The notes below the pieces were generated by a model that saw only the letters and a program-made list of their open reading frames with translations, did no database searches and was not told the DNA's origin. A DNA stretch of 64,000 nt, from positions 50,735,947-50,799,946 of the forward strand of contig CM034233.1 in the NCBI GenBank assembly GCA_019916065.1, written 5' to 3'. The stretch is from Vitellaria paradoxa (taxonomy: Eukaryota > Streptophyta > Magnoliopsida > Ericales > Sapotaceae). The translations under genes and the position numbers were made by a program. How positions within the stretch are numbered: position 1 is the first letter of the stretch; every line of letters starts with the position of its first letter. Positions 1 through 64,000 of the stretch are shown here, piece after piece.

Positions 1-1
1 G

Positions 2-1204
2 AGGATATTGGCTGTTTTACCCACCTCTGTCGCTGAGCAGATTTTTCTGATTCCTACCTGGCAGCAAGGCCCTGATCAGATCAGATGGAGTTTATCTTTA
101 GATGGTGGCTTTTCTCTTCGCTCTGCTTGGGACCACATCAGGGCGTCTATGGCTGTTAGGCCTATCTTTTCATTTATTTGGCAGAGGCACATCCCTCTTC
201 AGGTTTCATTTTTTATTTGGCGGCTCTTACATGGTTTTGTTGCCTTAGATGATTCATTGGCAAGCAAAGGTTTTCAGATGGTCTCTCGTTGTATTTGTGG
301 CTGTGCCAGTGAGACCCAATGCCACCTTTTTCTGCATTGTCCCCTGACTCGACAGGTTTGGCTTCATTTTTTTGGGATGTTTGGGCTTCATTTCTATGAG
401 TTCTCTTCTATCTCTTCTTTGCTCCTTCATTGGCACCGTTGCTCCCCTTCAGCGTGCCATATCAGGATTATGGTTGCCTGCTATGTACTTTGGCACATAT
501 GGAAGGCTCGTAATGCTTGTAGATTTGATGGCACCCCCTTCCATGTATTGCGGGTTATTCATAACATCACAGTAGACTTGCACCTTATTGGCTTGGCAGT
601 CGGCTTCAAAGCATCACAGCTTCGTGGAGATTTATCTGTGAGGTTAGTGAGGGCCTTGAGATGTTTGCCTTGCAGACCCAGGACAGTGAGACTGATATCA
701 TGGCTTAGACCCCCTGCGGTCTCCTTGAAACTTAATGTTGATGGGTGCTCTCGCGGTAATCCTGGTCCTTCAGCTGCTGGAGGTATTCTCAGGGATCACT
801 TGGGCAGGTTTGTGGGTGCATTTGGGCGCTTTCTTGATCACAAACCCATCATCTATGCTGAGTTAGTCGCTATTTTGACAGGGTTAGAGCTGGCCATTTC
901 TTGTGGATTTTCTTCTCTGATTGTAGAGTCTGATTCTACTACTGCTATTTCCTGGGTCACCTCCTCTAGTTCAGGCTGTTGGGAGTACACTTATCTTATT
1001 GCTCGAATTCAGCAGCTTTACTGTTCTGCCCCGATTCAGCTTCATCATGTCTACAGGGAAGCCAACCAGGCAGCGGATTTCATGGCTAATTGGGCTTGTT
1101 CTTTTCAGCAAGACCAGAGTTTTTCCACACAGCGGGGTCTTCCCAGAGACATTCATGGCATCCTTTCTCTTGATGCGGATGAGATTCCTCATATTAGGCT
1201 TTAG
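2..1204 (+). CDS. LINE-1 ORF2 protein, C-terminal part (zf-RVT and RNase H), 5'-partial
   Basis: About 400 codons stay open from the window edge to the TAG at 1202-1204. The N-terminal part is the zf-RVT region found downstream of plant LINE reverse transcriptases, with the CICGC...HLFLHC cysteine/histidine pattern near residue 95. The C-terminal part is an RNase H of the type acquired by plant L1 elements: NVDG with SRGNPGPS (first catalytic Asp), YAELVAI (Glu), VESDS (Asp) and HVYREANQAADFMAN (His and last Asp). Endonuclease and RT, if present, lie outside the window. The visible part has no disabling change, so the parent copy could be intact. The protein would act in the LINE ribonucleoprotein during target-primed reverse transcription. 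Confidence 0.9.
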   Translation, partial: RILAVLPTSVAEQIFLIPTWQQGPDQIRWSLSLDGGFSLRSAWDHIRASMAVRPIFSFIWQRHIPLQVSFFIWRLLHGFVALDDSLASKGFQMVSRCICGCASETQCHLFLHCPLTRQVWLHFFGMFGLHFYEFSSISSLLLHWHRCSPSACHIRIMVACYVLWHIWKARNACRFDGTPFHVLRVIHNITVDLHLIGLAVGFKASQLRGDLSVRLVRALRCLPCRPRTVRLISWLRPPAVSLKLNVDGCSRGNPGPSAAGGILRDHLGRFVGAFGRFLDHKPIIYAELVAILTGLELAISCGFSSLIVESDSTTAISWVTSSSSGCWEYTYLIARIQQLYCSAPIQLHHVYREANQAADFMANWACSFQQDQSFSTQRGLPRDIHGILSLDADEIPHIRL

Positions 1205-1486
1205 TTTTTTCATTTATCTTTTACTTTGGAGGTCAGGTTTATGTCCCCCTCCTTATTTTTGTTCTGTGGTGAGTCACCCCATTCTATCTCTTATTTTTCT
1301 TAGCTATTTTCATTACCTTTGTAATGCGGTGAGTCACCGCTCTATTATTTTATTTCTTTATTATTTTCCATTACTTCTCTTGGAGGTAAGGTTTAGGTCC
1401 CCCTCCATCATGTACTTCTTTTTTCAATTATCAATAAACTGGTAGGGGTCCCTGCCAAACCCCCCTCCCGCTAAGGAGGCTTTTTT
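1205..1486 (+). other. LINE-1 3'UTR with hairpin modules
   Basis: It carries the same ordered modules as LINE-5: GGAGGT...CCCCCTCC, two GGTGAGTCACC hairpins, a second GGAGGT...CCCCCTCC containing GGTTTAGG, GGTAGGGGTCCCTGCC, and CCTCCCGCTAAGGAGG at 1464-1479 just before poly(A). The first GGTGAGTCACC hairpin has a one-sided change here (CACCCCA instead of CACCACA) that breaks one pair. Confidence 0.8.
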
Positions 1487-1504
1487 AAAAAAAAAAAAAA
1501 AAAA

Positions 1505-1746
1505 CCCTGAACCCTGAACCCTCAACCCTGAACCCTGAACCCTAAACCCTGAACCCTCAACCCTGAACCCTGAACCATAAACCCTAAACCCTAAACCCTA
1601 AAACCTGAACCCTGAACCCTGAACCCTGAATCCTGAACCCTGAACCCTGAACCCTAAACCCTAAAACCCTAAAACCCTGAACCCTGAACCCTGAACCCTG
1701 AACCCTGAACCCTGAACCCTAAACCCTGAACCCTAAACCTTAAACT
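1505..1746 (+). repeat. Telomere-type repeat tract T1
   Basis: About 240 bp of heptamers, mostly CCCTGAA with CCCTAAA and a few variants (CCCTCAA, CCCTAAAA). It starts directly after the LINE-1 poly(A) and ends at the 5' junction of LINE-2. The orientation is C-rich on the + strand, like every other tract in the window. Confidence 0.95.
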
Positions 1747-1763
1747 TTCCATACATTTTATTT
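1747..1763 (+). other. Short filler at the 5' junction of LINE-2
   Basis: About 17 A/T-rich bases lie between the last telomere-like unit and the first base that aligns to the other LINE copies (GTGGAGCCC at 1764). They match neither the telomere repeat nor the LINE. Such non-templated or captured bases are common at 5' ends of truncated LINE insertions. Confidence 0.6.
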
Positions 1764-2936
1764 GTGGAGCCCTCAATTCAGATGCAATGAAGAGTCACCA
1801 GTTGTCCCTGTTTGGATCACTCTGCCTTATCTTCCCATACACTTAGTCCAGTGTAAGTCTGCATTATTTTCTATTGCCTCTGCTGTTGGTAAACCACTGA
1901 GAGTTGGTCATGCCACTGCCACTCTTAATAGACCAACTGTTGCACGGGTGTTGGTTGAATGTGATGTTTCCCAACCTTCCTTTACCAAAAAGGTTTGGGT
2001 TGGTGATGAGGAGTCGGGTTTTGTTCAGGATATTATTATTGAGAAGCTCCCAGATTACTGCATGTCATGTAAGCATTTGGGTCACAAGCAGGAGAAATGT
2101 TTTATTGCAAATCCCACATTTCGGCCTCCTGACAGGGTGGGAAATGAGAAAGGAAAAGGGAAAACTTCTTCAGGGGAAGTGTCTACTGCCCAAGAAAGAC
2201 TTGTTTATGTGCCAAAACCTACACAGAGACCTATTGTGTCTGAGATTTCAGCCCCTATCTCCCATCCAGCACCTGAGATTCCCTCCTCCAGTTTTGTTCA
2301 TGCTACTGCTGGACCTTCATCTCTACATCAGGATTATGTTATATCTTCCCCCCTATTATTTCTATGCCTCCTGATCAGGTATGCCCCTCCTCAGATGCTT
2401 TTATACTTGTTACTTCAGTGCAGGAACAAGCTCCTACTATACCATCTACTACAGCTTCAGTGATTGCTCCTATTACTACTCCTTCTTTGGGATTGGATAG
2501 CACAGCTATTACCATAGCTCCAGGTTCTTGTTCTGAGACTGCATCTCATATTCTCTCTTTATCTCCTGGACGAGCTCCTGGTGTTACCACTAATTTCCAG
2601 TCAGAAGATATTCCCAGTAATCAGACATTTCATTCAGGCCGTGTTGGCTCGCCTCATTCTGCTGATGACATTTCCTCTGATGATGATAATAGACTTGGGA
2701 TTGATGATAGCTTTGATTCTGATCCTAGATCCTCTGCTGATGTTCCCTAGAGTGAGGATCCCACCTCCAAAACTGTTGCTATCTCTTATTCTCCCAGCAC
2801 TAGCCTCATTGATGATGATGGATTCCAGCGAGTCCTTAGAAGTCGTCGTGGTGGAAAGAAGGGTATTACTACAAGCACAGGTACTAGCAAACCCCCTCAA
2901 ACTATTGCCCGTAAGGGTAGGAGCAATTTAAAATGA
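1764..2936 (+). pseudogene. LINE-2 ORF1 remnant (end of DUF4283-like domain, CCHC knuckle, acidic tail)
   Basis: This is the C-terminal part of the ORF1 nucleic-acid-binding protein. The zinc knuckle CMSCKHLGHKQEKC (CX2CX4HX4C) is present near 2060-2101. Compared with LINE-5 there is a one-base loss in the C-run near 2350, which shifts the frame, and a CAG to TAG change at 2748-2750. The terminal TGA (2934-2936) overlaps the ORF2 ATG (2933-2935) as ATGA. The N-terminal two thirds are missing through 5' truncation. Confidence 0.9.
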
Positions 2937-5900
2937 TTAAGTCCTTAATTTGGAATATAAGGGGGATTGGCCAGAATCCTTCTATCAGGGACTCAAAAGT
3001 ATTATTAAGTTACACCATCTTCAGCTGCTTTGTATTCTGGAGCCTTTTCTCTCAGCTGAGAAGATTGATTCTACAAGAGTCAAATTAGGCATGGAATCTG
3101 CTTTTGCTTCAGCTACTGGGAAAATTTGGGTTTTCTGGTCTCAACCATTCAGTGTTCAAATTCTACATGATATGGGCCAGGTGATTCATTGTAAGGTCAG
3201 CCACTACTCCCTTCCAGAGCCGGTATTTTTATCCTTTGTTTATGCTAAGTGTTCAGCACCATTACGCTTGGACCTTTGGGATGCTCTGATTACATTTTCT
3301 AGGGAAATTGACGGTGCTTGGATGGTTGGGGGAGACTTTAATGTTGTACAGCAGCATTCTGAAGTGGTTGGGGGTCATCCTCAACTTCAATCAGCCATTG
3401 ATGACTTTAATGTGACTCTTATGGACTGTGGACTTGAAGATGCTGGTTTTGAGGGGACTCCTTATACTTGGGCAAATGGTTTCACTAGGCGTAGATTGGA
3501 CAGGGTAGTGGTTAATAATCAGTGGGGGCGACACTTTCCTGTGTTCAAAGTTTCACACCTCAACCGCACTGGATCTGATCATTCTCCTCTTCTATTATCC
3601 TATGATTTAGGGCAGGCCCGGGGCCCGAGTAGATTCAAATTTTTACATACCTGGTTGAAACATCCTGACTTGATGGAAATCATCAAACATAACTGGTCAC
3701 TGCCCGTTTTCTCAAATGGTATGAGTGCTTTCCAGCAGAAACTTATAAGGCTCAAACATTGTCTTAAGCAGTGGAACAAAGAGGTATTTGGAAATGTCTT
3801 TAATAAAGTTCATGAGGCTGAACAAGAAGTACTTTATAGGGAGGGCTTATTTGATGCATCAGGCTCTGATCAGGATCGATCAGCTTTGCAATTGGCCAAA
3901 GCCAGGTTACTCCAAGCTTTATCCAGAGAGGAGTCATTTTTGAGACAGCAATCCCGTGTTAGATGGCTAAAGGAGGGGGACGCCAATTCCCGTTTTTTTC
4001 ATGCCATGATTCGAAGGAAGCACCATATTCTTGGAGTCCATCGTATTCAGGGGAATGACGGTATGTGGATTACAGATACAGAGGCAATTGAGGCCTCAGC
4101 AGTGTCCTATTTTCAGACTCTCCTATCTGGTGATGAGTCTACCTTCTCTGAGAGAGACTTTGACTTTATCCCTACTTTGGTAACTGAAGAGGATAATAAC
4201 TCTCTATGTGGGCTCCCTTCGATCGAGGAAGTCCGTGAGGCTGTTTTCTCTATAGATTCTGATAGTTCTCCAGGCCCAGATGGGTTTTGTAGTAAATTTT
4301 ACCAGGCTTGCTGGGAGGTGATTGGTATGGACCTTCACACTGCTGTTGTTGATTATTTCATAGGATCTCCTATGCCCAGAGGTTTTTTAAGCACTCTTCT
4401 TGTACTGCTGCCTAAAAAACCTTCTCCTACCACATGGGCTGATTTTAGGCCAATCAGTCTTTGTAATGTGAGTAATAAAGTCATTACTAAAATTCTGGTT
4501 TCCAGGCTTTCCTGCATTCTACCTCAGCTTATCTCTCCCTCCCAGAGTGGTTTTGTTCCTGGAAGATTGATCCACGACAACATACTGCTTGCCCAGGAGT
4601 TAGTTCATGATTTGAATAGAAGGACTCGAGGGGGTAATGTGGTGATAAAGCTGGATATGGCTAAAGCATATGATAGGATGTCCAGGCCTTTTATTCTTCA
4701 GATGCTTCGGGCCTTTGGTTTTTCTGAGCAGTGGATTTCATTGATTCACAGAGCCATTACAAACCCTTGGTTTTCTGTGATGGTTAATGGGGTTGCTAAG
4801 GGATTCTTCCAGTCACAGAGGGGATTACGACAGGGTGATCCTATTTCTCCTAGCCTCTTTATTATTGCAGCAGAATTTCTTTCCAGGAGTTTGGATAGAT
4901 TAGTAGCTCGGTATCCCTCAGTTGCCTATGCTACAGGAGTTCCCATCACCATCTCTCATTTGAGTTTTACTGATGATATCATCATTTTTGCTAATGGGAG
5001 CAGAGATAGTCTTCGTCATTTCATGGATGTCCTACACAGATATGAGGCTATCTCAGGCCAACTCGTCAGTCAGGCTAAGAGTAGATATTATACTGGCAGA
5101 TCGTCTACTGGTTCAAGAAGGAGTATTATTCATAATGTGACTGGCTTTCAGAGAGGTAATCTTCCTTTCACCTATCTTGGATGTCCCATTTATTTGGGTA
5201 ATCTTAAGATTGCCTTCTTTGAAGATTTAGTGAGGAAGGTTAGAGATAAGATCTCAGGCTGGGCTAATCGACTCCTCTCATTCGGGGGTAAGATTATTCT
5301 GATTCGACATGTCCTTTCCTCCATGCCTATCTATTTATTCCATGTCTTGAGGCCTCCATCAGATGTCTTTCACCAGTTGGAGCGATTATTTACCAAATTC
5401 CTTTGGGGTGATACTACTACTTCAAGGAAAATTCACTGGTGCAAGTGGGCCTCTGTTTGCTTCCCTGTGGAAGAAGGGGGTATAGGGGTTCGTTCTCTGG
5501 CTGATGTGGTTATGGCTTGTGAGATCAAACTGTGGTGGCATTTTAGAGCTCAGCAGTCTTTATGGGCCTCCTTTATGAAGGCTAAATATTGTTATGCTGA
5601 TCACCCATCTCTGGTTCATTTTACTTATCCTGCTTCCCCTCTATGGAGGCGCCTTTGCATTGTCAGGCTGACAGCTGAGCCCCTTATTAGATGGTTAGTT
5701 CGTTCAGGGAATTCCAGCTTTTGGTATGATTGCTGGGTGGGTTCTTGCCCACTAATTTCATTCAATCCTCTAGCAGCTTCTTCAGCTTCTGTATCTTCTT
5801 ACTGGACTGATACAGGGTGGGATAGGGAGAGGATTTTGGTTAAGTTACCCACTTCTATTGCTGAGCAGATATTCATGATTCCAACCACACAGCAAGGCCC

Positions 5901-7032
5901 AGATTTGATCAGATGGCGTCTATCATTAGATGGAGACTTCTCCCTTCCTTCTACTTAGGAGCACATTCGGACTTCTATGGAACCCAGGCCTGTTTATTCT
6001 TTCATTTGGCAGAGGCACATTCCTATTCAGGTTTCCTTCTTTATTTGGCGGCTCCTTCATGGCTTTCTTGCTTTAGATGACTCCCTGGCAAGCAAAGGCT
6101 TTCACATGGTTTCAAGATGCATATGTGGATGTGACTGTGAGACCCTGAGCCACCTCTTTCTTCATTGCTCACTGACTCGGCAAGTTTGGTAGTATTTTTT
6201 TGGGATGTTTGGGCTACACTTTTATGAGTTTACATCCGTTTCTACTATGCTACTTCATTGGCGTCGGTGTTCCCCTTCAGTGAGCCACATTAGGATTGTG
6301 GTTGTTTGCTACATACTGTGGCACATATGGAAGACTCGTAATGCTTGTAGATTTGACGGTATTTCCTTCCAAGTTCAGCGAGTTATTCATAGTATTACAG
6401 CAGATTTGCACCTTCTTGGTTTGGCATTGGGCTTTAAAGCATCACAACTTCGTGGAGATTCTTCTGTGGGGTTTGTGAGCTCTTTGAGAACACTGCCTTG
6501 CAAAACCAGGACAGTGAGATTGATATCATGGCGGCGGCCTCTTGTGGGTTCTTTGAAGCTCAATGTAGATGGCTGCTCCCGTGGTAATCCGGGTCCCTCA
6601 GCTGCAGGCGGTATTCTTCGTGATCACTTGGGCAGAGTTGTGGGGGCATTTGGTCGATTTTTGGACCATCAGCCCATCATTTATGCTGAGCTAGTGGCCC
6701 TTCAGGTTGGGTTGGAGATGGCCACTTCACTTGGGTTCTCTTCTTTGATTGTTGAATCAGATTCCTCCACTGCTATTTCTTGGGTTACTTCCTGTAATTC
6801 AGGCTGTTGGGAATATGCTTATCTCTTGGCTCGGATTCGAATACTCTGTAAATCTGCACCAATTCAAATCTGTCATGTTTATAGGGAGGCCAATCAGGCA
6901 GCAGACTTCATGGCTAATTGGGCATGCACTCATCAGCAAGATCAGAATTTCTTTGCACAGCGAGATCTTCCTCGAGGCATTTATGGTATACTTTCTCTTG
7001 ATGCAGATGAGACTCCTCACCTTAGGACCTAG
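2933..7032 (+). pseudogene. LINE-2 ORF2 pseudogene (endonuclease-RT-zf-RVT-RNase H)
   Basis: The full ORF2 domain order is present, with endonuclease motifs GGDFNVV and SDHSP, reverse transcriptase, zf-RVT and RNase H. The frame is broken by a one-base loss near 2990, 20 codons after the start. It is also broken by stops at 5956-5958 (TGG to TAG) and 6190-6192 (CAG to TAG). The RT catalytic box reads SFTDD near 4971-4985 instead of the SFADD of the other copies; both Asp remain but the Ala is Thr. The rest stays open for about 990 codons, which indicates recent decay. Confidence 0.93.
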
Positions 7033-7322
7033 AGTTTTCAGTTTTTATCTTATACTTTGGAGGTCAGGTCCATGTCCCCCTCCTTATTTTTGTACTGTGG
7101 TGAGTCACCACATCCTATCTCTTATTTATCTTAGCTATTATCATTACATTTGTAATGCGGTGAGTCACCGCTCTATTATTTTATTTCTTTATTATTTTCC
7201 ATCACTTCTCTTGGAGGTAAGGTTTAGGTCCCCCTCCATCATGTATTTCTTTTTTCAATTATTAATAAACTGGTAGGGGTCCCTGCCAAACCCCCCTCCC
7301 GCTAAGGAGGTTTTTTTTTTTT
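7033..7322 (+). other. LINE-2 3'UTR with hairpin modules
   Basis: Same module order as LINE-5. TGTGGTGAGTCACCACA forms an uninterrupted 7-bp stem with an AGT loop, and a second GCGGTGAGTCACCGC follows. CCTCCCGCTAAGGAGG and a T-run precede the poly(A). Confidence 0.8.
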
Positions 7323-7335
7323 AAAAAAAAAAAAA

Positions 7336-7540
7336 CCCTAAACCCTAAACCCTAAACCCTGAACCCTGAACCCTGAACCCTAAACCCTGAACCCTGAACC
7401 CTGAACCCTAAACCCTGAACCCTGAACCCTGAACCCTAAACCCTAAACCCTGAACCCTAAACCCTAAACCCTAAACCCTGAACCCTGAACCCTGAACCCT
7501 AAACCCTAAACCCTAAACCCTGAACCCTGAACCCTGAACC
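7336..7540 (+). repeat. Telomere-type repeat tract T2
   Basis: About 205 bp of CCCTAAA and CCCTGAA heptamers in irregular short runs of one to four of each kind. It joins the LINE-2 poly(A) to the 5' end of LINE-3. Confidence 0.95.
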
Positions 7541-7683
7541 CCCTACCTCCGGCAACCTAATTTTCCGGCGCCGTCCGGCCACTTTCTGGCGGATCTGCCG
7601 GTGATTTCTTCTTCCCAACATTGGTAGATTCTTTGCCCACCCTTTGGCCGCCGTTTTGGCCACTCCAAGGTCTGCCATACCCC

Positions 7684-10288
7684 ATGGCAGATTTAGAGGG
7701 TGAAGAAGGTTCGGCCTCTGAAGATTCTGGCGGTATTCTGGCCGGTATAGGCCCTACAACTTCCGGCCATGAAGGTTTCCGTCCATCCGGTGCAAATCCG
7801 GCCTCATCCACACAAGGTGCAGTGATTTCCCCTCAAACCAGCCCGCCTCTCACTCAAAACCAGTTAGCTATGGTGTTGGTTGGTATCCAAGAGCAATTGA
7901 CAAGCATTGCCGCCGGTTTCAAAGGGATTGGTGGCCGAAATGTGCAAATTTGTGATCCAATTCATGATTTTCGTGTTTCCCCTACTTCAATTGCTCCTAA
8001 TCTGGAAAAAACCAGTGTGTCTACAGCTTCCATGGCAGCCATGGCTGCCCCACCCTCATCCTCCTCTCAAAATCCTCAAAAAACCCAACCATACCCCTCG
8101 CCGGCCGATTTTTCACCCTCACCGGCCACCGGCGACCAAAACCCGGCCATCACCGGCCCTCCGGCGACCTTCCCCACCGGCGCCGCCACCATGGCAGCCG
8201 GCCCCTCACAAACCCTAGCCGCCACCCTTCCTTCCTCTAACCCTAAAATTAACCATGATACACTTTACCCCATAATTTCCCAATCTACCCTTAGCCTTTC
8301 AATCCCTAATCCCTCACCAATTTCAAACCCAAATTCCCAAATCCCCAATTCCTACACTCCCCAATTGGAAACCCTAATTCCCTCAATTGGCCAATTTCAC
8401 CAATCCAAAACCCCAAAACCCATCAATTAGCCAATTTACCCAAATTGAATCCCCAATTCCAATTTCTAACCCTAATTTGCCAAATCCCCAAATTAAAAAC
8501 CCTAGTGAGCCAAATCCCCAAATTGAAAACCTTAACTCCAAAATTGAAAAACCTAATTCTAATCTTGAAGACCCTAACCTTTCCCAATTCCCCGCCCTTT
8601 CAAAAAACCCTCCCAAAACCAAAAATTACACTTCCCTCCCCCAAAATGGTAATTTTTCCCATAAATTAACCATTCCACCAAAAAATGAAATCTTTGCAAA
8701 AAACCCCAATTTACCCCCGAACCAAGCATCTCCATCACCTCCTGAAAAGGAAATCTCTAGGCCGGAGAAATCTTTTATTGATGCCCTTGGAATTGGGAAA
8801 AATCAGTCCCCTGAAATTCCCATTAAACCCCTCACTAATTATCATGGAATGCCTGCTATTTTATTTTCTAAGGAGGAGATTGCTATCATGGCTGAACCTT
8901 TTAAGCTCTCCTTAGTTGGAAAGTTTTCATTTGGGAGGCCAACAATGGAGCTTATCAGAAAATTCTTTTCCTCTTTGGGATTGAAAGGTGATTGGCAAAT
9001 TTCTCTGCTTGACAATCGACATATTTTGATTAAGTTGAGACTTGAAGAGGATTACACCAGGTTATGGACTAGACAGTCTTGGTTTGTTCAGGGACACACT
9101 ATGCGTGTTTTCAAGTGGAGCCCTCAATTCAGATGCAATGAAGAGTCACCAGTTGTCCCTGTCTGGATCACTCTGCCTTATCTTCCCATACACTTAGTCC
9201 AGTGTAAGTCTGCATTATTTTCTATTGCCTCTGCTGTTGGTAAACCACTGAGAGTTGATCATGCCACTGCCACTCTTAATAGACCAACTGTTGCACGGGT
9301 GTTGGTAGAATGTGATGTTTCATAACCTTCCTTTACCAAAAAGGTTTGGGTTGGTGATGAGGAGTCGGGTTTTGTTCAGGATATTATTATTGAGAAGCTC
9401 CCAGATTACTGCATGTCATGTAAGCATTTGGGTCACAAGCAGGAGAAATGTTTTATTGCAAATCCCACACTTCGGCCTCCTGATAGGGTGGGAAATGAGA
9501 AAGGAAAAGGGAAAACTTCTTCAGGGGAAGTGTCTACTGCCCAAGAAAGACTTGTTTATGTGCCAAAACCTACACAGAGACCTATTGTGTCTGAGATTTA
9601 AGCCCCTATCTCCCATCCAGCACCTGAGATTCCCTCCTCCAGTTTTGTTCATGCTACTGCTGGACCTTCATCTCTACATCAGGATTATGCTATATCTTCC
9701 CCCCCTATTATTTCTATGCCTCCTGATCAGGTATGCCCCTCCTCAGATGCTTTTATACTTGTTACTTCAGTGCAGGAACAAGCTCCTACTATACCATCTA
9801 CTACAGCTTCAGTGATTGCTCCTATTACTACTCCTTCTTTGGGATTGGATAGCACAGCTGTTACCATAGCTCCAGGTTCTTGTTCTGAGACTGCATCTCA
9901 TATTCTCTCTTTATCTCCTGGACGAGCTCCTGGTGTTACCACTAATTTCCAGTCAGAAGATATTCCCAGCAATCAGACATTTCATTCAGGCCGTGTTGGC
10001 TCGCCTCATTCTGCTGATGACATTTCCTCTGATGATGATAATAGACTTGGGATTGATGATAGCTTTGATTCTGATCCTGGAGCCTCTGCTGATGTTCCCT
10101 AGAGTGAGGATCCCACCTCCAAAACTGTTGCTATCTCTTCTTCTCCCAGCACTAGCCTCATTGATGATGATGGATTCCAGCGAGTCCTTAGAAGTCGTCG
10201 TGGTGGAAAGAAGGGTATTACTACAAGCACAGGTAATAGCAAACCCCCTCAAACTATTGCCCGTAAGGGTAGGAGCAATTTAAAATGA
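7684..10288 (+). pseudogene. LINE-3 ORF1 pseudogene
   Basis: The likely start is ATG 7684 (MADLEGEEGS), in the same place as the LINE-5 start. The N-terminal half is rich in Pro, Ser, Asn and Gln and contains telo-box-like codon strings. The DUF4283-like domain and the CCHC knuckle (CMSCKHLGHKQEKC, from 9411) follow. Breaks seen: a frameshift between about 8380 and 8430, TAA at 9323-9325, TAA at 9599-9601, and TAG at 10100-10102, the last shared with LINE-2. The last TGA overlaps the ORF2 ATG. Confidence 0.9.
8220..8600 (+). repeat. Telo-box-like cluster within LINE-3 ORF1
   Basis: ACCCTAA or AACCCTAR occurs several times in this ORF1 segment, at the same place as the denser cluster in LINE-5. 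In the ORF1 frame the motif encodes Asn-Pro-Asn. The cluster is less complete than in LINE-5 and LINE-6. Confidence 0.6.
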
Positions 10289-14512: not shown

Positions 14513-14529
14513 AAAAAAAAAAAAAAAAA

Positions 14530-16330: not shown

Positions 16331-16345
16331 TACCCCCCAACCTAA
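16331..16345 (-). promoter_or_regulatory. Polypurine tract of the Gypsy element
   Basis: On the minus strand the bases next to the 3' LTR read AGGTTGGGGGGTA, a purine-rich tract directly against the LTR start TGATTG. This is the expected primer for plus-strand DNA synthesis. Confidence 0.75.
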
Positions 16346-17307: not shown

Positions 17308-17341
<34 letters not shown>

Positions 17342-33380: not shown

Positions 33381-33395
33381 AAAAAAAAAAAAAAA

Positions 33396-33592
33396 CCCTA
33401 AACCCTGAACCCTAAACCCTGAACCCTGAACCCTAAACCCTAAAACCCTAAACCCTGAACCCTGAACCCTGAACCCTGAACCCTAAACCCTGAACCCTGA
33501 ACCCTGAACCCTAAACCCTAAACCCTGAACCCTGAACCCTGAACCCTAAACCCTAAACCCTGAACCCTGAACCCTAAACCCTAACCCTAAAC
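33396..33592 (+). repeat. Telomere-type repeat tract T5
   Basis: About 197 bp of CCCTAAA and CCCTGAA heptamers between the LINE-4 poly(A) and the LINE-5 5' end, with a few off-length units (CCCTAAAA, CCCTAA). Confidence 0.95.
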
Positions 33593-33753
33593 CCCTCTAA
33601 AAAATTCTCTCAATCTCCATAGCCTCGGCCAACCTTTTTTCCGGCGCCGTCCGGCCGGTTTTCCGGCGAAGCCGCCGGCCAATCTCCTTCTCCCTCTTCG
33701 GCGAACCTTTCTCCGACGATTCTTTGGCGACGAACACTTCCGAGCAGCCTTTC
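33593..33753 (+). other. LINE-5 5'UTR
   Basis: About 160 bp. It begins CTCTAAAAAATTCTCTC and turns into a CCGGC-rich stretch (repeated CCGGCG and CCGGCC). LINE-6 begins with a similar but slightly longer leader and LINE-3 with a slightly shorter one. An internal promoter is expected here from family knowledge but was not identified. Confidence 0.7.
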
Positions 33754-39500: not shown

Positions 39501-40679
39501 TCTATTGCTGAGCAGATATTCATGATTCCAACCACACAGCAAGGCCCAGATTTGATCAGATGGCGTCTATCATTAGATGGAGACTTCTCCCTTCGTTCTA
39601 CTTGGGAGCACATTCGGACTTCTATGGAACCCAGGCCTGTTTATTCTTTCATTTGGCAGAGGCACATTCCTATTCAGGTTTCCTTCTTTATTTGGCGGCT
39701 CCTTCATGGCTTTCTTGCTTTAGATGACTCCCTGGCAAGCAAAGGCTTTCACATGGTTTCAAGATGCATATGTGGATGTGACTGTGAGACCCTGAGCCAC
39801 CTCTTTCTTCATTGCTCACTGACTCGGCAAGTTTGGCAGTATTTTTTTGGGATGTTTGGGCTACACTTTTATGAGTTTACATCCGTTTCTACTATGCTAC
39901 TTCATTGGCGTCGGTGTTCCCCTTCAGTGAGCCACATTAGGATTGTGGTTGTTTGCTACATACTGTGGCACATATGGAAGACTCGTAATGCTTGTAGATT
40001 TGACGGTATTTCCTTCCATGTTCTGCGAGTTATTCATAGTATTACAGCAGATTTGCACCTTCTTGGTTTGGCATTGGGCTTTAAAGCTTCACAACTTCGT
40101 GGAGATTCTTCTGTGGGGTTTGTGAGCTCTTTGAGAACACTGCCTTGCAAAACCAGGATAGTGAGATTGATATCATGGCGGCGGCCTCTTGTGGGTTCTT
40201 TGAAGCTCAATGTAGATGGCTGCTCCCGTGGTAACCCGGGCCCCTCAGCTGCAGGCGGTATTCTTCGTGATCACTTGGGCAGAGTTGTGGGGGCATTTGG
40301 TCGATTTTTGGATCATCAGCCCATCATTTATGCTGAGCTAGTGGCTCTTCAGGTTGGGTTGGAGATGGCCACTTCAGTTGGGTTCTCTTCTTTGATTGTT
40401 GAATCAGATTCCTCCACTGCTATTTCTTGGGTTACTTCCTGTAATTCAGGCTGTTGGGAATATGCTTATCTCTTGGCTCGGATTCGAATACTCTGTAAAT
40501 CTGCACCGATTCAAATCTGTCATGTTTATAGGGAGGCCAATCAGGCAGCGGACTTCATGGCTAATTGGGCATGCACTCATCAGCAAGATCAGAGTTTCTT
40601 TGCACAGCGAGATCTTCCTCGAGGCATTTATGGTATACTTTCTCTTGATGCAGATGAGACTCCTCACCTTAGGACTTAG
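36579..40679 (+). CDS. LINE-5 ORF2 protein: endonuclease, reverse transcriptase, zf-RVT, RNase H
   Basis: 1366 codons, uninterrupted. The start ATG lies in ATGA with the ORF1 stop. The endonuclease/exonuclease/phosphatase-type nuclease spans about residues 1-225, with WNIRG (Asn 8), LEPFL (Glu 37), GGDFNVV (Asp 135, Asn 137) and SDHSP (Asp 216, His 217). The reverse transcriptase spans about 440-720, with KLDMAKAYDRM, LRQGDPISPSLF and FADD at 679-682. zf-RVT spans about 1005-1090 (CICGC...HLFLHC). RNase H spans about 1205-1330 with NVDG, YAELVAL, VESDS and HVYREANQAADF. It should nick target DNA, prime on the 3'-OH and copy the LINE RNA; RNase H would remove RNA from the hybrid. It looks functional. 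Confidence 0.95.
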   Translation: MIKSLIWNIRGIGQNPSIRRLKNIIKLHHLQLLCILEPFLSAEKIDSTRVRLGMESAFASASGKIWVFWSQPFSVQILHDMGQVIHCKVSHYSLPEPVFLSFVYAKCSAPLRMDLWDALITFSREIDGAWMVGGDFNVVQQHSEVVGGHPQLQSAIDDFNVTLMDCGLEDAGFEGTPYTWANGFTRRRLDRVVVNNQWGRHFPVFKVSHLNRTGSDHSPLLLSCDLGQARGPSRFKFLHTWLKHPDLMEIIKHNWSLPVLSNGMSAFQQKLIRLKHCLKQWNKEVFGNVFNKVHEAEQEVLYREGLFDASGSDQDRSALQLAKARLLQALSREESFLRQQSRVRWLKEGDANSRFFHAMIRRKHHILGVHRIQGNDGMWITDTEAIEASAVSYFQTLLSGDESTFSERDFDFIPTLVTEEDNNSLCGLPSIEEVREAVFSIDSDSSPGPDGFCSKFYQACWEVIGMDLHTAVIDYFRGSPMPRGFLSTLLVLLPKKPSPTTWADFRPISLCNVSNKVITKILVSRLSCILPQLISPSQSGFVPGRLIHDNILLAQELVHDLNRRTRGGNVVIKLDMAKAYDRMSRPFILQMLRAFGFSEQWISLIHRAITNPWFSVMVNGVAKGFFQSQRGLRQGDPISPSLFIIAAEFLSRSLDRLVARYPSVAYATGVPITISHLSFADDIIIFANGSRDSLRHFMDVLHRYEAISGQLVSQAKSRYYTGRSSTGSRRSIIHNVTGFQRGNLPFTYLGCPIYLGNLKIAFFEDLVRKVRDKISGWANRLLSFGGKIILIRHVLSSMPIYLFHVLRPPSDVFHQLERLFTKFLWGDTTTSRKIHWCKWASVCFPVEEGGIGVRSLADVVMACEIKLWWHFRAQQSLWASFMKAKYCYADHPSLVHFTYPASPLWRRLCIVRLTAEPLIRWLVRSGNSSFWYDCWVGSCPLISFNPLAASSASVSSYWTDTGWDRERILAELPTSIAEQIFMIPTTQQGPDLIRWRLSLDGDFSLRSTWEHIRTSMEPRPVYSFIWQRHIPIQVSFFIWRLLHGFLALDDSLASKGFHMVSRCICGCDCETLSHLFLHCSLTRQVWQYFFGMFGLHFYEFTSVSTMLLHWRRCSPSVSHIRIVVVCYILWHIWKTRNACRFDGISFHVLRVIHSITADLHLLGLALGFKASQLRGDSSVGFVSSLRTLPCKTRIVRLISWRRPLVGSLKLNVDGCSRGNPGPSAAGGILRDHLGRVVGAFGRFLDHQPIIYAELVALQVGLEMATSVGFSSLIVESDSSTAISWVTSCNSGCWEYAYLLARIRILCKSAPIQICHVYREANQAADFMANWACTHQQDQSFFAQRDLPRGIYGILSLDADETPHLRT

Positions 40680-40962
40680 AGTTTTCAGTTCTTATCTTAT
40701 ACTTTGGAGGTCAGGTCCATGTCCCCCTCCTTACTTTTGTACTATGGTGAGTCACCATAATTACTTCATTATTTTATCTAGTCTTTTTCTATATCATTGT
40801 AAAGCGGTGAGTCACCGCTCTATTACGTTCTTTGGTTACAGTTTTCCTTCGCTTCTTTTGGAGGTAAGGTTTAGGTCCCCCTCCATCATGTACTTAATTT
40901 ATATTATTAATAAACTGGTAGGGGTCCCTGCCAAACCCCCCACCCGCTAAGGAGGTTTTTCT
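40680..40962 (+). other. LINE-5 3'UTR: ordered hairpin modules
   Basis: Modules in order: GGAGGT...CCCCCTCC (40706-40730); TATGGTGAGTCACCATA (40743-40759, 7-bp stem, AGT loop); AGCGGTGAGTCACCGCT (40803-40819); a second GGAGGT...CCCCCTCC that includes GGTTTAGG; GGTAGGGGTCCCTGCC; and CCACCCGCTAAGGAGG before poly(A). The first AGT hairpin reads TGTGG/CCACA in most other copies and TATGG/CCATA here, a two-sided change that keeps the pair. The terminal stem has one mismatch (CCACC against GGAGG) in this copy. Confidence 0.8.
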
Positions 40963-40980
40963 AAAAAAAAAAAAAAAAAA

Positions 40981-41110
40981 CCCTAACCCCTAAACCCTGA
41001 ACCCCTGAAACCCTGAACCCTGAACCCTGAACCATGAACCCTGAACCCTGAACCCTGAACCTGAACCCTGAACCCTAAAACCCCATGAACCCTAAACCAG
41101 CAAACCCTGA
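40981..41110 (+). repeat. Telomere-type repeat tract T6
   Basis: About 130 bp of CCCTGAA-rich repeats with more irregular units than the other tracts (CCCTAACC, CCCTGAAA, CATGAA). It joins the LINE-5 poly(A) to the processed retrocopy. Confidence 0.9.
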
Positions 41111-41818
41111 TGTTGCGGGCACTCCGCAGTGGTGAGTGGCGGTTCAGATGCCACCCATCTCGGACAAAGCTGCTTCGACTCGAAGTCTCGAACTTCTCCA
41201 TTAAAGGTTATTAAAGAAGTTGCAACGAGCATGGAGGAACCTGCCAAAAAAAACTTCACGTCCTCAACTGGTTAAGTTAGATAAGGCACTCAAATTGGCT
41301 GAAAAATGGGTTAGTAATATGACACAATCCACTGTAGACGAATTGGCTGAAGTAGAATTAGAGGGTCGACCTCTCAGGCTTGGATTGGGAGCAACAGTCC
41401 CAAGGCAGCCCAAGGTTGGACCTCTAAATGACCCTGTTGAAAGGAAATTGCATGCAAAATTAAATGCTGGAAAAAGAAAAGCGGCCAAAAGCACGGAGGA
41501 AATCATCTCACCTGCAAGAAACGGGTATGATGATAAAGATGATGATGATGATGATGACAGTGAAGATAATTTGGATAGCAGAACAAGCGTATTTGCCAAA
41601 AAGAGAGTAGTCCCTATGACTTCGACTTTACAAGCAAAGAAGAGGCAAAAATAATTTGTTCCTTCTGAGGTGAAAATTTAGAAGTCATCTTTTATGTAGT
41701 TTTCATTTTGTACAAATCATAGAAGGTGGGCTGTAACTTTCAATTCCGTGTTCAAAACTATAACATTATCAAAAGGGAAAAGTAAATTTAAGGGCATGTT
41801 TGATAAAAAAAAAAAAAA
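41111..41818 (+). pseudogene. Processed, polyadenylated retrocopy of a small host mRNA
   Basis: A unique segment of about 710 bp ends in 14 A (41805-41818) followed at once by CCCTGAA, exactly like the LINEs, but has no LINE sequence. It looks like a 5'UTR (about 41111-41230), a coding region from ATG 41231 to the TAA at 41652-41654, and a 3'UTR. The start ATG is out of frame with the main frame because an A-run (41246-41253) has 8 A; 7 A would join them. The predicted protein of about 140 residues is Lys-rich, with the block VDELAEVELEGRPLRLGLGA and an acidic run DDKDDDDDDDSEDN near the end. It resembles a conserved small eukaryotic nuclear-type protein, which I cannot name. No introns are visible. 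It was probably copied in trans by the LINE machinery. Confidence 0.8.
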
Positions 41819-41922
41819 CCCTGAACCCTGAACCCTGAACCCTGAACCCTAACCCTAACCCTAAACCCTAAACCCTAAACCCTAACCCTAAACCCTAAAC
41901 CCTAAACCCTAAACCCTAAACC
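41819..41922 (+). repeat. Telomere-type repeat tract T7
   Basis: About 104 bp. The first four units after the poly(A) are CCCTGAA; the rest are CCCTAA hexamers and CCCTAAA heptamers with no CCCTGAA. This is the purest canonical block in the window and is joined to the 5' end of LINE-6. Confidence 0.92.
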
Positions 41923-42088
41923 AAAACCGAACTTTCTCTCTCTAAAAATTTTCTCTCATCTCTCCCAACCCCGGCCATCACTTTTCCGGCGTCGGCAGGC
42001 CGGTTTTCCGGTGAACCCGCCGGCCGTAACCTACTCTCGAAGTTGGTGAAGGCTTGTACGGCACTTTGGCCATTGCTTGGCCACTCCA

Positions 42089-44826
42089 ATGGCTTCCATA
42101 GCCCCCATAACAGATGGGGAGCAAGAAGATACCATCTGAATTTTCCGGTGAGATTCCGGCCACCCACAGGTTGTCCCAAGTGAAGGTAGAGTTCTGCCCA
42201 GAATTGGTGAAAACCGCCCCTTCTTTGCACGGGATGGAGGGCTCTTCTTCCTCCTTCAATCTCGACCAGATGTTGCAGATTTTGACTGCTTTTCAGACCC
42301 ATTTAACAGCTCTAAAGGCTGCTGGTCACAGCCCTCACGGCCGGATTCCCGAGCTCCCTCCTTTGGCCGATCAATCCTTGCAAGTTCAAGCTGCCGTGGA
42401 CTTAATTTCTGGAGATTCCAGATCTGTTTTGAAGGTGTTTCCAGACCTTAATCCCTCTCCCATGGCTGCCATGCTTGAAAACCCCCCAAAAAATCTCCAA
42501 AAAACCAACCAAATCTCATTCCCCACAACCGGTCGCCGAAAAATCGCCCCTTCCCGGCGCCGGCGACCATTTTCCGACCGTCGCCGGTGCTCCGGCCAGT
42601 ACCCTTGCCGGCGCCGCTACCATGGCAGCCGCCACCCCACTACACCAAAACCCTAATCTTCAAAACTCACAACCTAACCCTAATGCCTTTATTCCCCAAA
42701 TTGCCCTTAATGAAATCCCCAATTTTCAAATTGGCCCAACTATCCCCCAAATCCCTAATTCTTCTTCAATTTCAAACCCTACCTCCCAAATTTCCAATTC
42801 AAATAATCCCCAAATCCCTATTACCTTAAATCCCCAATTGCAAACCCTAATTCCCCAAATTGGCCAAATTTCCCAATCTAAAACCCTAATTTACCCCAAT
42901 TTCCCAATTCCCCCAATTTGAACCCCCAATTCCAATACCTAACCCTAATTCAACTAATTCCCCACTCCATGTGAACCCTAATCATCCAAATCCCCAAATT
43001 GAAAACCCTAATGTCGAAATTTCCCAAATTGAAAACCCTAATTCCCAAATTGCAAACCCTAACTCCAAAATTAAAAATTCCAACTTTGACCTTGAAAACC
43101 CCAACTCTTCCCAATTCCCCGCCCTTTCCAAAAACCCCCCCAAAACCAAAAATTACACTTCCCTCCCCCAAAATGGCAATTTTTCCCATAACTTAACCAT
43201 TCCTCCCAAAACTGAAATCTTTGCCAAAAACCCCAATTTACCCCCGAACCAAGCCTCTCCATCACCTCCTATTGAAAAGGAAATCCCTAGGCCGGAGAAA
43301 TCTTTTATTGATGCCCTTGGAATTAGGAAAAATCATTCCCCCGAAATTCCCATTAAACCCCTTTCTAATTACCATGGAATGCCTGCTGTTCTATTTTCTA
43401 AGGAGGAGATTGCTATCATGGCTGAACCTTTTAAGCTCTCCTTAGTTGGAAAGTTTTCCTTTGGGAGGCCAACAATGGAGCTTATCAGAAAATTCTTTTC
43501 CTCTTTGGGATTGAAAGGTGATTGGCAAATTTCTCTGCTTGACAAACGGCATATTTTGATTAAGCTGAGACTTGAAGAGGATTACACCAGGCTATGGACA
43601 AGACAGTCTTGGTTTGTTCAGGGACACACTATGCGTGTTTTCAAGTGGAGCCCTCAGTTCAGATGCAATGAAGAGTCACCAGTTGTCCCTGTCTGGATCA
43701 CTCTTCCTTATCTTCCCATACACTTAGTCCATTGTAAGTCTGCTTTATTTTCTATTGCCTCTGCTGTTGGTAAGCCACTGAGAGTTGATCATGCCACTGC
43801 CACTCTTAATAGACCAACTGTTGCTCGGGTGTTGGTTGAATGTGATGTTTCCCAACCTTCTTTTGCTAAAAGGTTTGGGTTGGTGATGAGGAGTCAGGTT
43901 TTGTTCAAGACATTATTATTGAGAAACTCCCTGATTATTGCATGTCTTGTAAGCACTTGGGCCACAAGCAAGAGAAATGTTTTATTGCAAACCCTACACT
44001 TCGACCTCCTGCTAGGGTTGGGAATGAAAAGGGAAAAGAGAAAGCTTCTTCAGAGGAGGTGTCTGCTGGACAGGGAAGGCCTGTTTATGTGGCAAAGTCC
44101 CTAAAGGGGCCTACTTTAGCTCCTGCGACCTCTGCCCCTACTTCTCTTTCAATTCCTGAGGTCCCTTCTTCCAGTTCAGTTCCAGTTAATGATGGACCGT
44201 CAGCCTTGCCTCAGGATTTTGCTACTGCGTCTCCTCCTATTATTATGCTGACTCCTGATAAGGTAAGTTCTTCTCCAGATGCTCCTATTATTACTACTTC
44301 ACTGCAGGATCATGTCCACTCTTCTCCAGCTATTGTCCCAACTTCAGTTATTGCTCCTATTATTGTTCCCCATTCGGGATTGGATAGCACTGTTGTCACT
44401 ACAGCTCCAGGTCCCTGCTCTGGTACTGCTTCTTATAATGTATCTTTATCTCCTGGACGAGCTCCTGGTGTTACTATTAATTTTCAGTCAGAGGATATCC
44501 CGAGTAATCAGACTATTCCTTCTGGCCGTGTTGGTTCATCTCACTCTGCTGATGATGCTTCATCTGATGATGACCTGGAAGGTGGGACTGATGATAGATA
44601 TGCTTCTGATCCTGGGGCCCCTGATGTTGTTCCCCAAAGCGAAGATACTGCCTCCAAAATTGATACTATCTCTTCTTCTTCTAATACTGGCTCCATCGAT
44701 GCTGATGGCTTCCAAAGGGTTCTTAGAAGTCATCGTGGTAAAAAGAAAGATAATGTTCCTACAAATACTGCTGCTAGTAAACCCCCTCAAACTATCGCCC
44801 GCAAGGGTAGGAGCAAATCAAAATGA
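42089..44826 (+). pseudogene. LINE-6 ORF1 pseudogene
   Basis: It starts at or near ATG 42089. The frame changes near 42140, near 42475, between about 42900 and 42970 (after a TGA), and near 43870, where an A-run has lost one base. All domains are legible: the Pro/Asn-rich N-terminal part with a telo-box cluster (about 42650-43075), the DUF4283-like domain, the knuckle CMSCKHLGHKQEKC (from 43940) and the acidic tail with DGFQRVLRSHRGKKK. Its TGA overlaps ATG 44823. Confidence 0.88.
42650..43075 (+). repeat. Telo-box cluster inside LINE-6 ORF1
   Basis: AACCCTAA/ACCCTAA recurs about ten times in some 425 bp with the same CCCAAATTG-like spacers as in LINE-5. The cluster is kept although LINE-6 is in the other subfamily and its frame is shifted here. 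Confidence 0.7.
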
Positions 44827-47464
44827 TTAAGTCTCTCATTTGGAATATTAGGGGGATTGGTCAGAATCCTTCTATTAGGAGACTTAAAAAGCTTATTAAG
44901 CTTCATCACCTTCAGCTGCTTTGTACTCTGGAGCCTTTCCTTACGTCTGACAAGATTACTTCCTCCAGAGTTAGATTGGGTATGGATTCTGCTTTTGCCT
45001 CTGCTTCTGGTAAAATATGGATTTTTTGGTCTCAGCCATACAGTGTTCAGATTTTACATGACATGGGTCAGGTGATTCATTGTAAGGTCAGCCATTGTTC
45101 TAGTTCTAAGCCGTTTTATATTTCTTATGTTTATGCTAAGTGTTCAGCATCACTGTGTGTGGAGCTCTGGGATGCCTTGCTTTCTTTTTCTGGGGAAATT
45201 GATGGTCCTTGGATGGTTGGTGGGGATTTTAATGTTGTTCAGCAGCACTCTGAGGTGGTTGGGGGTCATCCCCAACTTCAATCAGCCATTGATGATTTTA
45301 ATGTGGCTCTTATGGATTGTGGGCTGGAAGATGCTGGGTTTGAAGGAACTCCTTATACTTGGGTTAATGGTTTTACCAAGCGTAGATTGGACCGGGTTGT
45401 GGTTAATAACCAATGGGCGCGTCGCTTTTTGGTATTCAAAGTTTCACATCTTAACCGCACTGGCTCTGATCACTCTCCCCTTCTCTTATCATGTGAGTCT
45501 AGACAGACTCGGGGCCCAAGCAGATTCAAATTTCTACATGCATGGTTGAAGCATCCTGAATTGTTGGAAATCATCAAACAGGAATGGTCTTTGCCTATAA
45601 ATTCTTACGGTATGACTGCTTTCCAGCAGAAGCTGATTAGACTCAAACACCGACTCAAGCAATGGAATAAAGAGGTGTTTGGAAATGTTTTTGACAAAGT
45701 GAAGGAGGCTGAACAAGAGGTGTTATTTAGGGAGAGGTTATTTGATGCTTCAGGATCTGATATGGATCGTTCTGCCTTACAGCTAGCTAAAGCCCAGTTA
45801 CTCCAGGCCTTATCCAGAGAGGAATCATTCTTGAGACAGCAATCCCGTGTCAGATGGTTGAAAGAGGGGGATGCTAATTCCAAATTTTTTCATGCTATGA
45901 CTCGGAAGAAACACCATATCCTTGGAGTTCATCGTATTCAGGGGGATGATGGCATGTGGATTTCTGATATTGATGCTATTAGGGACTCAGCGGTATCTTA
46001 TTTTCAGACTCTTCTTACTGGTGATGACTCTGCTTTCTCTACGAGGGACTTTGACTTTATCCCCTCTTTGGTGACTGAGGACGATAATATTGCTCTTTGT
46101 GGTCTTCCTACTATTGAGGAAGTTCGTGCGGCAGTATTTTCTATTGATTCAGATAGCTCTCCTGGTCCTGATGGCTTTTGTAGTAGATTTTACCAGGCCT
46201 GTTGGGAGGTTATTGGCAAGGATCTTCATGCCGCTGTTTTGGATTACTTTAGTGGATCACCTATGCCCAGGGGTTTTTACCCACCTCTGTCGCTGAGTAG
46301 ATTTTTCTGATTCCTACCTGGCAGCAAGGCCCTGATCAGATCAGATGGAGTTTATCTTTAGATGGTGGCTTTTCTCTTCGCTCTGCTTGGGACCACATCA
46401 GGGCGTCTATGGCTGTTAGGCCTGTCTTTTCATTTATTTGGCAGAGGCACATCCCTCTTCAGGTTTCATTTTTTATTTGGCGGCTCTTACATGGTTTTGT
46501 TGCCTTGGATGACTCATTGACAAGAAAAGGTTTTCAGATGGTTTCTCGTTGTATTTGTGGCTGTGCCAGTGAGACCCAGTGCCACCTTTTTCTGCATTGT
46601 CCCCTGACTCGACAGGTTTGGCTTCATTTTTTTGGGATGTTTGGGCTTCATTTCTATGAGTTCTCTTCTATCTCTTCTCTGCTCCTTCATTGGCGCCGTT
46701 GCTCCCCTTCAGCGTGCCATATCAGGATTATGGTTGCCTGCAATGTACTTTGGCACATATGGAAGGCTCGTAATGCCTGTAGATTTGATGGCACCCCCTT
46801 CCATGTATTGCGGGTTATTCATAACATCACAGTAGACTTGCACCTTATTGGCTTGGCAGTCGGCTTCAAAGCATCACAGCTTCGTGGAGATTTATCTGTG
46901 AGGTTAGTGAGGGCCTTGAGATGTTTGCCTTGCAGACCCAGGACAGTGAGAGTGATATCATAGCTTAGACCCCCTGCGGGCTCCTTGAAACTTAATGTTG
47001 ATGGGTGCTCTCACGGTAATCCTGGTCCTTCAGCTACTGGAGGTATTCTCAGAGATCACTTGGGCAGGTTTGTGGGTGCATTTGGGCGCTTCCTTGATCA
47101 CAAACCCATCATCTATGCTGAGTTAGTCGCTATTCAGGTTGGGTTGGAGCTGGCCATTTCTGTTGGGTTCCCTTCTCTGATTGTTGAATCTGATTCTGCT
47201 ACTGCTATTTCATGGATCACCTCGTCTAGTTCATGTTGTTGGGAGTACGCTTATCTTATTGCTCGAATTCGGCAGCTATGCTCTTCTGCACCGATTCAAC
47301 TTCATCATGTCTACAGGGAAGCCAACCAGGTAGCGGATTTCATGGCTAATTGGGCTTGTTCTCTTCAGCAAGACCAGAGCTTTTCTACTCAGCGGGATCT
47401 CCCCAGAGACATTCATGGCATCCTTTCTCTTGATGCGGATGAGATTCCTCATATTAGGCTTTAG
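44823..47464 (+). pseudogene. LINE-6 ORF2 pseudogene with 1.46-kb internal deletion
   Basis: Open from ATG 44823 through the endonuclease and the first part of the RT up to GSPMPRGF. At about 46274-46279 it jumps to the PTSVAEQIF segment near zf-RVT, with a T-run at the junction shared by both sides. The RT core with FADD is gone and the frame shifts, giving a stop at 46308-46310. The zf-RVT and RNase H parts are readable in another frame from about 46409, with one TGG to TAG stop at 46961-46963. A truncated endonuclease-bearing protein of about 490 residues is still possible. Confidence 0.92.
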
Positions 47465-47749
47465 TTTTTTGATTTATCTTTTATTTTGGAGGTCAGGTTT
47501 ATATCCCCCTCCTTATTTTTGTACTGTGGTGAGTCACCACATTTTATCTCTTATTTTTCTTAACTATTTTCATTACCTTTGTAATGCGGTGAGTCACCGC
47601 TCTATTATTTTATTTCTTTATTGTTTTCCATTAATTCTTTTGGAGGTAAGGTTTAGGTCCCCCTCCATCATGTACTTCTTCTTTCTAATTATTAATAAAC
47701 TGGTAGGGGTCCCTACCAAACCCCCCTCCCGCTAAGGAGGCTTTCTTTT
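47465..47749 (+). other. LINE-6 3'UTR with hairpin modules
   Basis: Same modules. GGTAGGGGTCCCTACC (47702-47717) is fully self-complementary in its stem here, where the other copies have CCCTGCC and rely on a G-T pair. CCTCCCGCTAAGGAGG closes the UTR. Confidence 0.8.
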
Positions 47750-47762
47750 AAAAAAAAAAAAA

Positions 47763-63984: not shown

Positions 63985-64000
63985 GAAACCTCGAACCCCG

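Follow-up and report, generated by a model that had tools for sequence, protein, structure and literature searches.

The stretch of Vitellaria paradoxa DNA analysed here (64,000 nucleotides, referred to below as the window; C1:50735947-50799946) carries a train of long interspersed nuclear elements (LINEs) set between short arrays of telomere-type repeats. It is interstitial, lying on a contig of 80.73 Mb in a genome assembly of 667 Mb and 71 contigs; the reading of the window as a chromosome end is excluded by its interior position, at 50.7 of the 80.7 Mb of C1. The order is LINE-1, array, LINE-2, array, LINE-3, an array split by a long terminal repeat (LTR) element, LINE-4, array, LINE-5, array, a copy of a host messenger RNA (mRNA), array, LINE-6 and degenerate repeats, with all six LINE copies and the mRNA copy on the plus strand. 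The clean arrays are built of CCCTAAA (65 perfect units) mixed with CCCTGAA (85); read on the other strand, TTCAGGG thus outnumbers TTTAGGG, a mixture that could stem from telomerase RNA or from amplification of the array.

Coordinates below are those of the window, and all features except the LTR element are given on the plus strand. LINE-1 (1..1504, poly(A) at 1487-1504) is present only as its 3' part and is followed by an array at 1505..1745. The 5'-truncated LINE-2 (1750..7335, poly(A) 7323-7335) leads through the array at 7336..7544 into LINE-3 (7545..14529, poly(A) 14513-14529), which is near full length, with a broken frame in its second open reading frame (ORF2). The next array is in two halves, the left at 14530..14618, with a CCCTA target duplication at its end, and the right at 28502..28732, whose terminal 52 bp are also the first bases past the poly(A) of LINE-4. 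LINE-4 (28733..33395, poly(A) 33381-33395) is 5' truncated and heavily decayed in ORF2. Beyond an array at 33396..33594 lies LINE-5 (33595..40980, poly(A) 40963-40980), in which both ORF1 and ORF2 are open; a partly degenerate array (40981..41110) separates it from a processed pseudogene of a host DUF3245 mRNA (41111..41818, poly(A) 41805-41818, then CCCTGAA), and a further array (41819..41922) precedes LINE-6 (41923..47762, poly(A) 47750-47762), which lacks the reverse transcriptase (RT) region and reaches about as far 5' as LINE-5.

The element that splits the third array is a Ty3-type LTR element of 13.9 kb on the minus strand (14619..28501), flanked by the CCCTA duplication. Its LTRs are 98.4% alike (6 mismatches and 22 gap positions in 1711 columns), and since they differ so little the element is probably young. 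The best match to it elsewhere has 79% identity and points to no clear genus. From 47763 to 64000 the window consists of a degenerate telomere-derived array of the AACCCCG type, whose first 5 kb show a 127-bp higher-order unit. Within it are five LINE 3' tails of about 110 bp (one at 54713..54829, the others beginning at 56447, 59149, 60645 and 62456). Because the same 5' boundary and the same decayed poly(A) recur in all five, we reject the reading as five insertions and take them to be a single old insertion amplified with the array. Old tails of this type continue past the window, at least as far as C1:50856880, and are met again at 0.19-0.24 Mb on C9.

Alignment of whole elements places LINE-2, LINE-3 and LINE-5 in a subfamily A (divergence 1.4% between LINE-2 and LINE-3, 1.9% between LINE-2 and LINE-5, and 6.8% between LINE-3 and LINE-5) and LINE-1, LINE-4 and LINE-6 in a subfamily B (4.6-11%), with 17.5-21% between the two. 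This bears out a preliminary description of the window, which had recognized six LINE copies of two subfamilies, unlike in truncation and decay, on one strand; its inventory of inserts was incomplete, with the DUF3245 mRNA copy and the amplified old tail both overlooked. ORF2 is broken to a varying degree in every copy except LINE-5, LINE-4 being the worst and LINE-6 having no RT part. The divergence of LINE-3 from LINE-5 rises from about 1-2% to 9% in the last 500 bp and to 16-46% in the first 1.5 kb, pointing to recombination or template switching among LINE lineages. An order of age from private substitutions proved unreadable, being confounded by recombination between copies, and a strict outward order by age was rejected, as LINE-4 is the more decayed and yet lies on the outer side of LINE-5. 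The ORF1 region of the LINEs itself includes degenerate tandem repeats resembling telomere units (8361-8578, 34550-34871 and 42974-43077).

Plant L1-clade LINEs are marked by an N-terminal APE-type endonuclease, an RT, a zinc-binding region, an ORF1 with DUF4283, a poly(A) and 5' truncation, and the LINEs of the window show this whole set. In Pfam comparisons LINE-5 ORF1 (33601..36579) contains DUF4283 and a weak match, below the cut-off, to a CCHC knuckle, while ORF2 (36567..40676, 1370 amino acids) contains an APE-type endonuclease, RT, zf-RVT and RNase H (RVT_3). Among 25 aligned proteins the endonuclease residues G134, D135, N137, D190, S215, D216 and H217 are invariant and N8 and E37 nearly so; we assume for them the catalytic role of their L1 counterparts. 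The predicted endonuclease model (mean pLDDT 93.3) has its best fold match in the human L1 endonuclease (TM 0.72-0.75), with the TRAS1 endonuclease at 0.71; a search of the PDB with the endonuclease by sequence only gave no meaningful match. For the RT, the best of the solved structures is the ORF2p of LINE-1, the L1 element proper (1.5e-48), followed by another chain at 2.7e-19 and R2-named chains at 2e-15, in a set in which we know of no R1-clade RT. Descent from the R1-clade telomeric elements of insects, TRAS and SART, does not fit, as an RNase H domain is present and both RT and endonuclease are L1-like; to our knowledge TRAS/SART-type R1 elements are without RNase H. The closest proteins to LINE-5 ORF2 are P0001 (62%) and, as the closest named relatives, the Citrus sinensis proteins P0002 (62% over 96% of ORF2) and P0003 (66% over 68% of it). 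No DNA encoding a relative was found in viral_contigs or genome_contigs.

The junctions of these elements are strikingly uniform. In all seven inserts of the window, the mRNA copy included, a poly(A) of 13-18 nt passes directly into CCCT, and all five LINE 5' ends that are visible abut the repeats (that of LINE-1 lies outside the window, where the assembly has N), so that both ends are as the preliminary description had them. At 41 telomeric junctions (LINE-1 being entered twice, as L029 and W_L1), poly(A)-CCCT occurs in 36 and poly(A)-GAACCC in none. This nearly fixed register fits priming from a ...GGGTTT end after a nick at TTT^AGGG; the exact nick is unreadable, since the end of the poly(A) cannot be told apart from the AAA of the repeat. 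With regard to the 5' ends and INDEPENDENCE in twenty 10-kb loci, 16 of 20 are flush with telomere or telomere-like repeats; of the others, one has about 1.5 units after the previous tail, two run into N, and L035 has non-telomeric DNA upstream. Every array detected in these twenty loci is C-strand relative to the element, and none is G-strand. In L022, L023 and L038 the 5' end, judged by eye, is close to one of the telomere-like patches of ORF1, suggesting microhomology at the 5' joint of these copies.

The seventh insert is of a different origin. Its body (41111-41804) is without introns and encodes a DUF3245 protein whose best named relatives are in Actinidia, Camellia, Davidia and Rhododendron and point to a host among the asterids, perhaps in the Ericales. 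The parent gene, at C2:70970643-70974877, matches it at 96-99% identity in four blocks spread across 4.2 kb, and the insert is for that reason a processed copy; with no introns, a poly(A) and a parent gene elsewhere, it has the features of a processed pseudogene. To judge from two open frames, it has a frame shift near its start. Its orientation and register are those of the LINEs. Because a host mRNA was inserted at the same kind of site, the LINE protein machinery, without LINE RNA sequence, would appear to be enough to reach telomere repeats.

The same association is seen throughout the genome. With the last 1.46 kb of LINE-6 as query, at least 44 places were found (40 of 443 first-look candidates were scored), from which three without a 3' end and two fragments were left out. 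Among the 39 readable copies so found by 3' similarity (L021-L040, with LINE-1 as L029, L041-L057, and LINE-4 and LINE-6 of the window), the poly(A) is joined to telomere-type repeats, a few of them degenerate, in a single orientation in 36; the three not so joined are L046, L049 and L055. A 16-base motif of the LINE tail, as a second query, has 124 exact matches genome-wide (reversed control 0), 100 of which were listed. Direct reading of 72 of these gave 59 telomeric tails and 13 that are not; the junction pattern, tail plus AACCCTRAA within 34 nt, places 21 of the 28 unread tails as telomeric and leaves seven unclassified. This pattern has 55 forward matches against 73 forward tails, the listed forward rows being one per tail, and its reversed control is again 0. 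Among the matches listed, then, 80 of 93 classified tails have a telomere-type flank in one orientation. Fourteen of the 80 are of the old amplified type by their decayed poly(A) (ten at C1:50.79-50.86 Mb and four at C9:0.19-0.24 Mb), and 66 of 79 are telomeric when these are set aside. A check of flanks and strand over the whole genome, as the preliminary description had proposed, has thus been run in large part, with a telomeric majority in a single orientation; its idea of telomere targeting largely stands, while the specificity is not absolute and the window itself is interstitial.

As to position, 41 of the 100 listed tails are less than 1 Mb from a contig end and 45 belong to clusters in the interior; the other 14 are single interior tails, and of these the one at C11:1496233 is telomeric. 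In the region C11:5183672-5277004 the strand of the tails changes from minus, up to 5.234 Mb, to plus, from 5.256 Mb. This head-to-head arrangement would be expected for an old end-to-end fusion of chromosomes, or for a misassembly.

We consider it likely that these elements form an L1-type LINE family with a preference for telomere-type repeats of subtelomeric or interstitial location, into which it inserts by target-primed reverse transcription at TTT^AGGG. The ORF2 endonuclease would nick the G-rich strand there, and the freed ...GGGTTT end would pair with the poly(A) tail and prime reverse transcription, so that the poly(A) becomes joined to the CCCTAAA strand and the array on the opposite side adjoins the 5' end. 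The protein machinery would also carry host mRNA to a similar site on occasion, and later exchange among subtelomeres would have copied some of the trains. We infer the exact position of the nick, and also that the specificity comes from the endonuclease and not from a host factor bound to telomeres. The preference for telomere repeats is strong and not absolute, and the family is TRAS-like in its working, not TRAS by descent.

Target-site duplications, and with them internal insertion, are supported but not proved. LINE-4 has an exact flank repeat of 52 bp (p = 0.008 against random array pairs), whose 49-base core occurs only twice in the window, and in twenty copies rare variant words common to both flanks exceed those of permuted pairs (sum p = 0.003), most clearly in L033, L036, L031, L030 and LINE-5. 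Read by eye, duplications of about 17-55 bp appear real in some copies and blurred elsewhere by turnover of the array.

Several results weigh against targeted insertion as proposed. Orientation and register could arise from poly(A)-TTT pairing alone. Thirteen of the 93 classified tails are in non-telomeric DNA, all of them isolated interior copies (one, L063, has no poly(A) and is doubtful as a LINE tail). The number of copies sharing any rare word across their flanks is 6 of 20 (p = 0.036, which we count as weak); a gapped score for target-site duplication gave no signal, 231 of 720 permutations reaching the observed sum, and in a simpler permutation test of flank matches 54 of 720 reached the observed value. 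A Fisher test of flank repeats gave p = 0.15 for exact repeats and 0.56 with one edit (0.04 for LINE-4 alone with one edit), and a further test for target-site duplication gave p = 0.03, or 0.10 for the genomic copies alone. Finally, four copies (LINE-6, L021, L025 and L028) lie between unlike arrays, clean to one side and degenerate to the other, an arrangement not predicted by simple insertion into a single array. At the off-target copies C4:19362732, C4:26281673 and C10:21804436, the bases after the poly(A), examined by eye, suggest that coding sequence of LTR retrotransposons may be the host.

The leading alternative is terminal addition, by which the G-rich 3' overhang of a chromosome end would prime the reverse transcription of LINE RNA, in the manner of HeT-A, and telomerase would then add new repeats outside, so that interior trains such as that of the window would be relocated relics. 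Zepp of Chlorella vulgaris, which we take to be L1-like, has presumably been discussed as another such case. In keeping with terminal addition, the 5' end points outward in 35 of the 41 listed tails that lie less than 1 Mb from a contig end, and trains lie near the ends of C1 and C10, both of which stop inside this LINE (92-98% identity over the last 200 bp); LINE-6, moreover, is bordered by its degenerate array after the poly(A) and by a clean one before the 5' end. No telomere repeats occur in the last 200 bp of ten contig ends, so the true chromosome ends are not assembled there. L021 and L025, however, are reversed with respect to the prediction, clean on the poly(A) side and degenerate on the 5' side; the rare variants shared between flanks and the 52-bp repeat of LINE-4 indicate one array split by insertion; and the decayed LINE-4 lies outside the intact LINE-5, which speaks against a strict outward order unless LINE-4 is a copy of an element that had decayed before. 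Attachment is also not confined to chromosome termini, as it is in the HeT-A/TART/Zepp type: the window is interior, and clusters in the interior account for 45 of the 100 listed tails. We regard terminal addition as unlikely.

Even less probable is that a generic L1 endonuclease (TTTT/AA-like) inserted widely and that copies survived mainly in gene-free telomeric repeats, with poly(A)-TTT pairing setting their orientation. The off-target tails are as such a survival bias would have them, a Ty3-type LTR element likewise sits in the array, and TTT^AGGG is presumably similar to the generic L1 site, which we count in its favour. Against it, not one of the seven inserts has gone into the inserted bodies (32.5 kb, 320 TTTA sites) or into the LTR element (151), as against 67 such sites in the clean repeats; the 16-kb degenerate array, with 151 TTTA sites, has received only the one old insertion; and other gene-poor DNA should abound in a genome of this size. 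The chance of all seven inserts falling in 1.2 kb of clean repeats is about 7e-7 by length and 0.0013 when weighted by TTTA sites, under a uniform, local model that takes the inserted bodies as the sole alternative targets and is post hoc for one window; the genome tally is the stronger test.

Duplication of LINE trains is real: the train at C11 5.26-5.28 Mb has the same spacing as that at C5 51.81-51.85 Mb (5371, 4584 and 7459 bp), and short flanks match in the pairs L091/L100, L092/L104 and L105/L106. That a few insertions were multiplied by duplication of subtelomeric blocks, as these trains, the single origin of the five old tails and the 14 telomeric tails of that type would suggest, is nevertheless refuted as the sole cause and very improbable as the explanation, since only two pairs among twenty 10-kb copies have long flanks in common, so that most of these are separate contexts, since the copies are unlike in 5' truncation, in subfamily and in the pattern of their 3' flanks, and since the retrocopy arose independently by an event of this kind. 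The preliminary description had named a single duplicated insertion as one case that would undo its reading; for the window this fails on the unlike 5' truncations, the two subfamilies and the retrocopy, and trains elsewhere are in part duplicated.

The 3' tails of the LINEs have two motifs in common. A conserved hairpin, CCTCCCGCTAAGGAGG, stands shortly before the poly(A) at 40940..40955 in LINE-5 (with one mismatch) and also at 1464, 7295, 14490, 33359 and 47725, and is found with two mismatches or fewer in 10 of 11 window tails (six LINEs and five old tails); a covariation check of the tail was uninformative, the hairpin pairs being invariant or broken. All 11 tails also carry the word AGGTTTAGGT, within which lies G-strand telomere sequence; in the six LINEs it is at 1389, 7220, 14415, 33284, 40867 and 47649, about 95 bp before the poly(A). 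GGTTTAGG does not occur elsewhere in the scanned part of the window (all but the clean arrays and 47761-54700). One may speculate that AGGTTTAGGT, as a word of the 3' untranslated region (UTR), helps in targeting.

Such a family bears on the growth of interstitial telomere blocks and of subtelomeres, and offers a plant endonuclease for the study of telomere recognition. A further suggestion, which we make tentatively and think rather unlikely, is that chromosome ends here consist in part of LINE trains between short telomere arrays, with retrotransposition and subtelomeric exchange lengthening or buffering the ends beside telomerase and host mRNAs occasionally being deposited.

LINEs that target telomere repeats are described from insects, fungi, protists and an alga (PMC10088271). 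TRAS of Bombyx mori and other insects likewise resides in telomere repeats; TRAS1 nicks the G strand between T and A, at TT^AGG (PMC7265360, PMC2868851), the same strand and position as proposed here, and its poly(A) would lie on the C-rich strand as in our copies. TRAS, however, is of the R1 clade (PMC10088271), in contrast to the L1-like RT, RNase H, DUF4283-containing ORF1 and plant TTTAGGG/TTCAGGG repeats of the present family. SART, another insect element, is also specific for telomere repeats and poly(A)-dependent, and acts in trans on a reporter RNA with its 3' UTR (PMC7265360); it differs in clade, being of R1, and in its opposite orientation in the repeat. MoTeR and FoTeR, CRE-type elements of fungi, are telomeric LINEs as well, their 5' end facing the end of the chromosome (PMC12857005), but they use a restriction-enzyme-like endonuclease rather than one of APE type. 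The mixture of TTTAGGG and TTCAGGG makes target duplications partly readable in Vitellaria, whereas the FoTeR authors, in the same report, were unable to define theirs (PMC12857005).

Among plants, telomere-associated elements are rare, the examples being a Penelope-like element in Selaginella and the subtelomeric Retand in Silene, and a 2025 review of plant transposable-element niches gives no Drosophila-like telomeric retrotransposon in plants so far (PMC12477314). The statement in the preliminary description that no plant case had been described agrees with the open full-text literature on land plants, in the searched passages of which no telomere-specific LINE of a land plant is described; it does not hold for the Viridiplantae as a whole, in which Zepp, a LINE accumulating at telomeres, is the nearest case of the green lineage (PMC10088271). 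Zepp belongs to a green alga, whereas the present family is from an angiosperm and shows probable target duplications, interstitial trains and a retrocopy of a host mRNA. It is probably the first telomere-targeting LINE from a land plant, and this L1-type angiosperm case has apparently evolved apart from TRAS and SART.

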